Shown piece by piece: positions 8,361 to 26,804 of a stretch of DNA of 64,000 nt; position 1 is the first letter of the stretch, and each line of letters starts with the position of its first letter. The position numbers were made by a program, and so were the translations under genes. The notes under the pieces were generated by a model that had not been told where the DNA came from, did no database searches, and worked only from the letters and a program-made list of their open reading frames with translations. Source of the DNA: Luteitalea sp. TBR-22 (lineage in GTDB: Bacteria > Acidobacteriota > Vicinamibacteria > Vicinamibacterales > Vicinamibacteraceae); NCBI RefSeq assembly GCF_016865485.1, contig NZ_AP024452.1:372001-436000 (forward strand), given 5' to 3'.

Positions 8361-8996
8361 CTACCCCCGCACCACCGCCTCGACGAACTCCGCTTCCGGC
8401 ACGGCCCCGAGGATGTCGGCGCTCTCGTTGATGACGGTCTTCGGCACGCCCGACACGCGGAAACGCCGCACGAGATCGGGGTACTCCACGGCCGAGACCG
8501 CCGCAGTGGTGATGTGATCGCTCTCGACCGCCAGCTGCCATCCCAGGCGGACCGCCCGGGGACAGTGCGGTCAAGTCGGTGTCGAGAAGATCTGGAGCGC
8601 GCGCGGCTCCGAGAGCGTCGCGACCAGGCCGCGTGACTCCTCGGTGAGGCCGGAATCGCCGGCCGAGGCGATGAGGATGCCCTCCAGCAGCGACACCAGT
8701 TCGTAGCCGTCAGGTGCGCCGTAGAACCGCAGGCCGCGGTCCCGGTCGCCGACGATGGCGACGCCCGGTGCCGCGACGATGCCGTAGAGCTCGACGTCTG
8801 CGGTGTCGAGCACCATGTTCTTCTCCTCGAGGCTGACCAGCGCGTTGGCGCGCGGGAAGTCCTCGAGGATGCGCTTGGTGGTGGCGCAGGTCTCGCAGCC
8901 GAAGGTCTGGGTGAAGAACACGAGCCGCACCGGGTTGGTCATCCCCGACAGCCGCTCGGTCAGCGCCCGCATCTCATCGTCGCTGAAATAGCTCAC
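8361..8996 (-). CDS. Protein disulfide oxidoreductase, predicted selenoprotein (UGA = Sec142)
   Basis: Read through one in-frame TGA (8571-8573) this is a 211-aa protein, GTG at 8996 to TAG at 8361. It has two thioredoxin folds, as in the PDO family (Pyrococcus furiosus PDO is of similar length with CxxC motifs at 35-38 and 146-149). The first fold has C34-E-T-C37 after VFFTQTFG. The second has FSTPT-U142-P-H-C145-PRAV, where relatives have C-P-Y/H-C, so the UGA sits exactly at the nucleophilic Cys. Homology continues after the UGA, including the cis-Pro loop RVSGVPKTV. A SECIS-like hairpin follows at the right distance. Known: bacterial Sec insertion needs SelA, SelB, SelC and SelD, none encoded here. 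Inferred: a cytosolic thiol/selenol oxidoreductase. Ordinary gene callers would stop at residue 141. Confidence 0.85.
8542..8560 (-). promoter_or_regulatory. Bacterial SECIS element
   Basis: On the mRNA strand, CCCGGGC pairs with GCCUGGG in a 7-bp stem (one G-U pair) closing a 5-nt GGUCC loop. The loop GG falls at +18/+19 after the UGA, next to +19/+20 in Escherichia coli fdhF, whose apical loop also carries GGUC. SelB recognises such loops to deliver Sec-tRNA. The stem also codes for the protein, as is usual in bacteria. Confidence 0.8.
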
Positions 8997-9833: not shown

Positions 9834-9876
9834 CCAGGGGGCTCATGGTGGCCACTGCGGTATCGTGCAAGCAGGC

Positions 9877-10836
9877 ATGAACGTTTCCCGTTCCTTCCAT
9901 GACGCCCTCGTCGAGGCGACCGGCGCGCCGCTGACGCCGGCCGCGATCGAGACCGTGCAGGTGAACGTCGGACTCGCGTGCAACCTCGCGTGCCTGCATT
10001 GCCACGTCGAGAGCGGCCCGAAGCGCACCGAGGCGATGTCGCGCGAGACGATGGCGCAGGTGCTGGACGTGGCGAGAGCGGCTGGCGCGCGGGTGGTCGA
10101 CATCACCGGAGGGGCGCCGGAGATGCATCCGCACTTCCGGTGGTTCGTCGACGAGGCGATCCGGATCGGCGCGCGGGTGATGGTGCGCACCAACCTCACG
10201 ATCCTGCTCGAAGAGGGCTACGTCGACCTGCCGGCATGGTTCGCGACCCGACGGGTGCACCTGGTGGCGAGCCTGCCCTGCTACACCGCAGCCAACGTGG
10301 ACGCGCAGCGGGGGCGAGGGACCTTCGACGGATCGATCGCGGCCCTGCGCGCGTTGAACGCCGTGGGCTACGGCGTGCGGCAGGACCTGCCCCTCGACCT
10401 CGTGTACAACCCCGGCGGCACGGGCCTGCCCGGTCCCCAGGCCGCGCTGGAAGCCGACTATCGTCGTCGGCTGGCCGAGGACTGGGGTCTGGCGTTCACA
10501 CGCCTGCTGACGATCACCAACATGCCGATCGGGCGCTTCGCGCGGGACCTGGCGCGCGAGGATCGGCTGGAGCCGTATGTGGCCAGGCTCGCCGATGCCT
10601 TCAATCCCGCGACGGTCGAGGGGCTGATGTGCCGGCACCAGTTGCACGTCGCCTGGGACGGGCAGTTGTACGACTGCGACTTCAACTACGCGCTCGGCAT
10701 GGGGGTGGTCGGCGTGCCGCCGCACATCGGCGACGTCACCCCGGAGACGTTCCTGCAGAGGCGCATCGCGACGGCCGCGCACTGCTTCGGTTGCACGGCG
10801 GGCGCGGGTTCGAGCTGCGGAGGCGCGCTCGCATGA
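9877..10836 (+). CDS. arsS: Radical SAM protein, ArsS-like (arsenosugar biosynthesis family)
   Basis: A 319-aa protein from ATG at 9877. The 4Fe-4S/SAM motif is C35-NLA-C39-LH-C42. Family-specific blocks follow in order: DITGGAPEMHPHFRW, SLPCYTAANVDAQRG, LNAVGYG, LDLVYNPGG, LTITNMPIGRF, LMCRHQLHVAWDG and YDCDFNYALG, the last belonging to the DUF3641 C-terminal domain. A Cys-rich tail (CFGCTAGAGSSCGG) probably binds an auxiliary cluster. ArsS enzymes are implicated in adding a deoxyadenosyl group to arsenic when making arsenosugars. No arsM or other ars gene is adjacent, so the substrate here is uncertain. It overlaps the next gene by 4 bases. Confidence 0.88.
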   Translation: MNVSRSFHDALVEATGAPLTPAAIETVQVNVGLACNLACLHCHVESGPKRTEAMSRETMAQVLDVARAAGARVVDITGGAPEMHPHFRWFVDEAIRIGARVMVRTNLTILLEEGYVDLPAWFATRRVHLVASLPCYTAANVDAQRGRGTFDGSIAALRALNAVGYGVRQDLPLDLVYNPGGTGLPGPQAALEADYRRRLAEDWGLAFTRLLTITNMPIGRFARDLAREDRLEPYVARLADAFNPATVEGLMCRHQLHVAWDGQLYDCDFNYALGMGVVGVPPHIGDVTPETFLQRRIATAAHCFGCTAGAGSSCGGALA

Positions 10837-25118: not shown

Positions 25119-26804
25119 ATGCCCAATCCAGTCCTGCTCGCGGTGGATGACGACCCCGGTGTCCGCGGCGCGATCGTGCGCGACCTTCGCGAGCACTACG
25201 ACGAGGACGACACCCCGGCCGACCGGCAATACGAGGTCCTCGCCGCCGACTCCGGCGCCGCTGCCCTCGATCTTGTCGACCGCCTGCGCCAGCGCCGGCA
25301 GCCGATCGCGCTGGTGCTGTCGGACGAGCGCATGCCGGGCATGGGCGGCGTGGACCTGCTCACGAAGGTTCGCGACGCCTCGCCGCATACCAAGCGCGTC
25401 CTGCTGACGGCCTATGCCGACACCGACGTCGCGATCCGTGGCGTCAATCGCGCCCGCCTGGACCTGTACCTCACCAAGCCGTGGAACCCGACCGAGCTGT
25501 TCTCGCCGCTCGACGACCTCCTCGCGGCCTGGCGCGCCGAGGCACGCCACGAAGATGCGCGCACGCTCCTCTTCGGCGATCGCTGGTCGCGCGAGTGCTA
25601 CCAGCTGCGCGAGTTCCTGGCGCGCAACCGGGCGCCGTACCGGTACCACGACACGGCGAGCCCGGAAGGTCGTGAGGCCCTCACCGCGTTGGTGGGCGAC
25701 GAGTGGCCCGCGCTACCCCTGCTCGTGACGCAGGAGGGCCTGCGCCTCGAGCGCCCGGACGTCCAGGCGCTGGCCACCCACCTGCACCTGCAGACGCGCG
25801 CCGAGCTCGAACGCTACGACCTCGTGGTGGTCGGCGCCGGCCCCGCCGGCCTCACCTCGAGCGTCTACGGCGCCTCGGAAGGGCTGCGGACGCTGCTGCT
25901 CGACCGCGATGCGCCGGGCGGGCAGGCCGGCCTGAGCGCCCGGATCGAGAACTACCTCGGATTCCCGGCGGGCCTGTCGGGGCGCGACCTCACCACGCGC
26001 GCGGTGGCGCAGGCGCGCAAGTTCCACGTCGAGATCGTCAGCCCGCAGGCCGTGACGGCGATGCGGGTGGAGCACGAGTACAAGGTGCTGCGCCTGGCCG
26101 ATGGGCACGAGGTGCAGGCCTCTGCCGTGGTGCTCGCGATGGGCGTGCAGTGGCGCAAGATCACCGGCGTCGACGGCCTCGACCGGTTCACCGGCGCCGG
26201 GGTGTATTACGGCGCCTCGATGGCCGAGGCCCGCACGTGTCGCGACGAGACCGTGTACGTCGTGGGCGGCGCGAACTCTGCCGGGCAGGCGGCGCTGAAC
26301 TTCGCGGAGTTCGCCCGGAAGGTCGTGATGCTGGTAAGGGGCCCCGACCTGTCGGCCACCATGTCGGAGTACCTGATTGCGAACATCAGGCAGCGCGACA
26401 ACATCGAGGTCCTCACGCACACCTGCGTGGTGGGCGCCGAGGGCGACGACCGCCTGCGTTCCCTCACCCTCGCCTCGCCGTCGGGCGAGGGCGCGCGGAC
26501 GGTGGAGGCAGCCTCCCTCTACGTGATGATCGGCGCCGCGCCGGACACCGACTGGCTCGGCGACGTCGTGGCGCGCGACCCGCGCGGCTACATCTACACG
26601 GGGCCCGACCTCCCGCGTCCTCCCGGCAGCACGCGGCCGGAGGGATGGCCGAGGAGCCGCGACCCGTGGCTCCTCGAGACGTGTGTGCCGGGCGTGTTCG
26701 CCGCCGGCGACGTCCGGTGCGGATCGGTCAAGCGCGTCGCGTCGAGCGTCGGCGAGGGCGCCGTCGCCATCCAGTTCGTCCACCAGTACCTCGCGGGGAA
26801 GTAG
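25119..26804 (+). CDS. Fused response-regulator receiver / thioredoxin-reductase-like flavoprotein
   Basis: A 561-aa protein; ATG at 25119 opens the receiver (MPNPVLLAVDDDPGVRG). Residues 1-130 are a CheY-like receiver with phospho-acceptor Asp69 in LSDERMPGMGG, Thr in LLTAYAD and Lys in LYLTKPWNP. A linker or glutaredoxin-like segment (about 145-225) follows. The rest is a TrxR-like FAD/NAD(P)H reductase with VVGAGPAGL and GGQAG...IENYLGFP, a second nucleotide motif VVGGANSAGQAA and GVFAAGDVR. The redox Cys pair of true thioredoxin reductases is missing, so it probably does not reduce thioredoxin. The next two genes complete a signalling cassette. Confidence 0.92.
   Translation: MPNPVLLAVDDDPGVRGAIVRDLREHYDEDDTPADRQYEVLAADSGAAALDLVDRLRQRRQPIALVLSDERMPGMGGVDLLTKVRDASPHTKRVLLTAYADTDVAIRGVNRARLDLYLTKPWNPTELFSPLDDLLAAWRAEARHEDARTLLFGDRWSRECYQLREFLARNRAPYRYHDTASPEGREALTALVGDEWPALPLLVTQEGLRLERPDVQALATHLHLQTRAELERYDLVVVGAGPAGLTSSVYGASEGLRTLLLDRDAPGGQAGLSARIENYLGFPAGLSGRDLTTRAVAQARKFHVEIVSPQAVTAMRVEHEYKVLRLADGHEVQASAVVLAMGVQWRKITGVDGLDRFTGAGVYYGASMAEARTCRDETVYVVGGANSAGQAALNFAEFARKVVMLVRGPDLSATMSEYLIANIRQRDNIEVLTHTCVVGAEGDDRLRSLTLASPSGEGARTVEAASLYVMIGAAPDTDWLGDVVARDPRGYIYTGPDLPRPPGSTRPEGWPRSRDPWLLETCVPGVFAAGDVRCGSVKRVASSVGEGAVAIQFVHQYLAGK

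Follow-up and report, generated by a model that had tools for sequence, protein, structure and literature searches.

In Sulfolobus, electrons pass from NADPH to thioredoxin reductase (Tr), then to protein disulfide oxidoreductase (PDO), and from there to peroxiredoxins, and the C-terminal site of this PDO dominates its thiol-transferase activity, while the isomerase activity requires both sites (PMC7465337; PMC7278568). A selenocysteine (Sec)-containing form has been on record since 2006, when a survey counted a "homolog of AhpF, amino-terminal domain" of Carboxydothermus and Symbiobacterium among the selenoproteins (PMC1794560). Reviews from 2022 and 2026 list that selenoprotein as TIGR02187, UxxC, ABB15282.1, predicted only (PMC9312934; PMC13188914), and a 2024 paper extended the family by four Asgard members (PMC11227280). 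Here, we analyzed computationally a gene in a 64,000-nucleotide stretch of the genome of Luteitalea sp. TBR-22 (the window), which, judging from its sequence and that of its relatives, very probably encodes a genuine selenoprotein of this family through a UGA at codon 142. The host, a bacterium of soil and freshwater (Acidobacteriota, Vicinamibacteria), is a duckweed isolate grown at 30°C, and its deposited annotation was made with MetaGeneAnnotator in DFAST (PMC8852301). Its genome is a single contig of 6,468,984 bases. We hold with considerable confidence that the locus encodes a cytosolic TIGR02187 selenoprotein in which UGA142 would be decoded as Sec via SelB, tRNA-Sec, and a downstream hairpin and which would act as a disulfide reductase by the mechanism proposed below.

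The frame lies on the minus strand, from 8996 to 8361, and ends in a TAG stop at 8361-8363; its single in-frame TGA is codon 142, after which 69 sense codons follow, as the initial annotation had read it. The 211-residue read-through protein matches TIGR02187 (the NCBI model "PDO_seleno_TRX, protein disulfide oxidoreductase") with 208.3 bits and an E value of 7.8e-62, covering model positions 2-207 of 209 and exceeding the cut-off of 185 bits, and the closest solved sequences are the Aquifex and archaeal PDOs (E 8e-32). An AlphaFold2 model, for which the alignment input consisted of window and locus sequences only, reached a predicted local distance difference test (pLDDT) score of 95.9 and a predicted template modeling (pTM) score of 0.91. 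It forms two tandem thioredoxin folds that superpose on the Aquifex PDO 2ayt with a Z score of 33.0 and a root mean square deviation of 1.0 Å over 209 residues. Each fold holds a CxxC-type redox center, the second with U in place of C, at a spacing similar to that of archaeal PDO. The assignment to the PDO family, the dual CxxC/UxxC layout, the near-archaeal spacing, and the thioredoxin-fold homology past the TGA had all been put forward in the initial annotation, and all of them held up. A GVPKT loop (Table 1) contains Pro185, which we take to be the cis-proline expected opposite the UxxC, as is general for thioredoxin folds. Membership in the AhpF families TIGR03140 and TIGR03143 was rejected, as the scores were 38 and 61 bits against cut-offs of 503 and 688, respectively, and the thioredoxin-like part alone aligned. 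A plasmid search for the PDO gave distant AhpF/thioredoxin-like matches only.

Sec142 is placed exactly at the nucleophile of the C-terminal site, the dominant one in Sulfolobus PDO, and the TBR-22 genome encodes a canonical thioredoxin reductase elsewhere. Taken together with the Sulfolobus pathway, this makes a cytosolic disulfide reductase that is fed by thioredoxin reductase and uses Sec142 as the nucleophile the most likely function. In the cell, we infer that UGA142 would be decoded as Sec by SelB and tRNA-Sec, guided by the hairpin just downstream, to give a mature enzyme whose first and second folds carry CETC and UPHC, respectively. Sec142, expected to be a selenolate at neutral pH, would attack the substrate disulfide, and Cys145 would resolve the mixed selenenyl sulfide to leave a Se-S bond. 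This bond would be rereduced by NADPH-dependent thioredoxin reductase, possibly relayed through the N-terminal CETC. The likely clients would be peroxiredoxins and other oxidized protein thiols, as with the all-Cys PDO of Sulfolobus. The window itself also contains a thioredoxin-reductase-like stretch (25815-26792, plus strand) within a 614-residue open frame; it scores below the TrxR family cut-off and belongs to a longer flavoprotein.

It is also conceivable, though in our view unlikely, that the selenoprotein acts mainly as an isomerase or oxidase or as the dedicated donor of a single peroxidase, in the manner of the AhpF N-terminal domain, rather than as a general disulfide reductase. The fold is indeed close to that of AhpF N-terminal domains (Z 28.7 to 5h29), but the N-terminal site, which is needed for isomerase activity, has been lost in many Sec relatives. 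OsmC-like genes (hydroperoxide reductase family), possibly encoding a peroxidase client, lie directly downstream of the Sec PDO in metagenome-assembled genomes (MAGs) of Ignavibacterium (L059:5654-6106) and Zixibacteria (L068:2163-2627), but no gene neighbor is kept across the Sec-PDO loci. The TBR-22 genome also carries a separate peroxiredoxin-like AhpC-TSA protein whose TGGU motif contains an in-frame TGA (L159:1376-1960, plus strand; G000:C1 ~2.0798-2.0804 Mb). Its signal-peptide-like N terminus suggests that it is probably an exported Sec peroxiredoxin, whereas no signal-peptide-like start was found at the N terminus of the PDO.

The reading of UGA142 as an ordinary stop, with a 141-residue N-terminal domain as the product and the downstream half as a decaying remnant or a sequencing artifact, is extremely improbable. 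A mechanical open reading frame call does end the gene at the TGA, and the open frame beyond it is unremarkable in such GC-rich DNA, since 41% of codon-position-preserving shuffles of the post-TGA stretch were also stop-free. We therefore set the length of the open frame aside, and the evidence that rises above chance is the homology, the placement of the TGA, and selection. In a set of 119 distinct homologous sequences from related genomes, named contigs, and the phylum, column 142 is TGA in 79 and Cys in 40, and TGA occurs at no other position. The ratio of nonsynonymous to synonymous substitution rates (dN/dS) 3′ of the TGA, measured against four congeners, is ~0.06-0.16, which is below or close to the value 5′ of it, so that purifying selection downstream is no weaker than upstream, and C145 and GVPKT are conserved there. 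Close homologues combining a different sense codon at this column with a degraded C-terminal half, which the initial annotation had named as a refutation of its reading, were not seen. It is the confinement of TGA to column 142 together with the downstream selection that contradicts an ordinary stop, and the co-occurrence of SelA with the TGA form speaks against it as well.

All four genes whose presence the initial annotation had asked about, selA, selB, selC, and selD, are in the TBR-22 genome (SelA, 399 bits; SelB, 345 bits; tRNA-Sec, 65 bits; SelD, 336 bits). SelA is present in 54/55 Acidobacteriota genomes with a TGA-containing PDO gene compared to 20/46 with a stop-free one (Fisher p 1.2e-10, with the relatedness of the genomes ignored). 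Besides the PDO, SelD and the peroxiredoxin are apparent Sec genes of this genome. In SelD (L040, minus strand), the UGA lies in CAGUASK, and the stem that follows closes, as read by eye, on a GCU triloop compared to the GGU loop of the PDO gene.

The putative selenocysteine insertion sequence (SECIS) hairpin of the PDO gene, CCCGGGC[GGUCC]GCCUGGG, was found as first described, with the position of the loop GG counted after the TGA. In fdhF of Escherichia coli, the loop GG sits at ~+19/+20, and the spacing here is therefore normal. The wider fold was evaluated as a 54-nt RNA against dinucleotide shuffles (Table 1). When apical stems around a GU at +19/+20 were scored against synonymous recodings of the same gene, Sec genes showed an excess (mean z 2.1) that Cys genes did not (0.17; Mann-Whitney p 2e-11), and the TBR-22 gene alone gave a p of ~0.011. 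Among 30 same-register sequences, 92% of stem cells pair, a percentage that leans towards structure because the sequences were chosen for register, and one stem pair shows five C-G to A-U double changes. In other clades, as read by eye, the register is shifted, and the loop is either the four bases GGUC or a GGU triloop. Read-through of UGA142 by a near-cognate tRNA (Cys or Trp) that bypasses the Sec machinery would fit with the Cys at column 142 of TGA-less homologues, but it deserves hardly any credence given the full Sec machinery in the genome, the confinement of the hairpin excess to TGA genes, and the near restriction of the TGA form to SelA-positive genomes.

Some results weigh against a Sec-decoded disulfide reductase. 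An Rfam search gave no SECIS family match, and no recognizable GGU hairpin at this spacing was found in three Chloroflexi Sec homologues. One genome with a TGA-containing PDO gene (G399, an assembly of ~150 contigs) had no SelA at E 1e-40. Among 126 neighbors of 34 PDO loci, there was no conserved partner gene that would fix the function; the commonest neighbor family was peptidase M61, with 6 members.

Regarding other genes close to PDO loci, a small CoA-binding-domain protein (PF13380) is encoded directly downstream of the Sec PDO in three Chloroflexi (L073:5793-6209, L088:5707-6102, and L107:5718-6134), and two of these, L073 and L088, also lack a recognizable GGU hairpin. In the window, a radical SAM protein with DUF3641 is encoded two genes from the PDO (9865-10833, plus strand), with all Cys at its C terminus; the radical SAM family TIGR04167 has been listed with Sec members (PMC13188914).

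Sec PDOs are also found in MAGs bearing the names Chloroflexi, Zixibacteria, Ignavibacterium, Gemmatimonadetes, Rokubacteria, and Aquicultor, any one of which may be misassigned. When the trait columns were excluded from tree building, the TBR-22 protein fell in a well-supported Luteitalea clade inside the Sec-containing Vicinamibacterales. Many forks are weakly supported, which makes the change counts rough, but the tree requires at least 13 changes of the Sec/Cys label and at least three losses of the N-terminal CxxC. This motif is lost in 18/79 Sec proteins, mostly to SxxG, and in 0/40 Cys proteins of the 119-sequence set. The first fold of AhpF likewise carries SxxG. The idea that the loss is exclusive to Sec forms was dropped, as a Cys homologue in G300 (L173), in a Sec-rich family, also has no N-terminal CxxC. 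A sequence on a contig labeled Cyanobacteria (L112) nests inside the acidobacterial Sec-PDO clade and probably comes from a misbinned or mislabeled MAG. As a tentative and rather doubtful scenario, Sec PDOs may be widespread in mesophilic bacteria (Acidobacteriota, Chloroflexota, Zixibacteria, Rokubacteria, and others), with Sec gained and lost repeatedly. With Sec in place, several lineages might then have been able to do without the N-terminal CxxC, which would have re-created the AhpF-like single-center layout, with the TBR-22 protein representing a dual-center stage.

Table 1. Features of the predicted Sec-containing PDO gene of Luteitalea sp. TBR-22 (positions in the window) and loci of Sec PDOs lacking the N-terminal motif
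Feature	Position or loci	Strand	Basis or remarks
Coding sequence, two-domain Sec-containing PDO (predicted)	8361..8996	minus	GTG start, TAG stop, 211 residues, TIGR02187 residues 6-209
In-frame TGA at codon 142, predicted Sec	8571..8573	minus	Column shared by all 79 Sec homologues; the remaining 40 have Cys
C-terminal redox center U-P-H-C, residues 142-145	8562..8573	minus	Read-through translation, alignment
N-terminal redox center C-E-T-C, residues 34-37	8886..8897	minus	Fully conserved in set A1 (22 sequences); some other lineages have lost it
GVPKT loop of the C-terminal thioredoxin fold; Pro185 expected to be the cis-proline facing the UxxC	8436..8450	minus	V184, P185, and K186 invariant
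Core of putative bacterial SECIS hairpin	8542..8560	minus	7-bp stem including one G-U, GGUCC loop 8549-8553, GG at +18/+19
Extended fold around the SECIS hairpin, from the UGA onward	8525..8573	minus	Minimum free energy -32.3 kcal/mol, z -3.47
Sec PDOs without N-terminal CxxC	L069, L071, L074, L079, L085-L087, L094, L111-L113, L121, L141, L145, L147, L149-L151		

With this locus, a cultured acidobacterium gains a well-supported selenoprotein, and because the host is in culture, both Sec incorporation and the two-center CxxC/UxxC chemistry can be tested. Natural Sec/Cys pairs and the variants that have lost the N-terminal site offer a comparison of what Sec contributes to a disulfide oxidoreductase. 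Gene callers that do not support Sec would lose the catalytic C-terminal half of the PDO gene.

The initial annotation had hinted that the CxxC/UxxC combination might be new, but this did not stand, as a UxxC selenoprotein in TIGR02187 has been published since 2006 and the NCBI model bears the name PDO_seleno_TRX. What looks less documented is the breadth of the family in Acidobacteriota and other lineages and the repeated loss of the N-terminal CxxC. Within the papers open to searching, from which the majority of subscription articles and two pertinent selenoprotein papers were missing, neither a report of acidobacterial members of the family nor a biochemical characterization of a Sec PDO was found. 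The known TIGR02187 selenoproteins, which are predicted and come from Carboxydothermus, Symbiobacterium, and later Asgard archaea, match the same full-length family model as the TBR-22 protein and share its UGA-encoded UxxC motif, a comparison made by description and not by sequence. The archaeal and Aquifex PDOs (2ayt/2ywm, 1a8l, 1j08, 2hls, and SsPDO of Sulfolobus) also have tandem thioredoxin folds with a CxxC-type site in each and similar site spacing (Z 29-33), but they have Cys where the TBR-22 protein has Sec, at the first residue of the C-terminal site. PDOs were called exclusive to thermophiles in a 2020 review (PMC7465337), in contrast to their presence in this host grown at 30°C and their frequency among its relatives, often as a selenoenzyme. 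The UxxC selenoprotein thioredoxins and glutaredoxins (PMC13188914) likewise carry the motif in a thioredoxin fold but are single-domain proteins with one redox center. The AhpF N-terminal domain (5h29, 1zyn, and 1hyu) shares the double-thioredoxin fold (Z 22-29) but is fused to a reductase module and contains Cys only, whereas the TBR-22 PDO is free-standing and keeps its N-terminal CETC.
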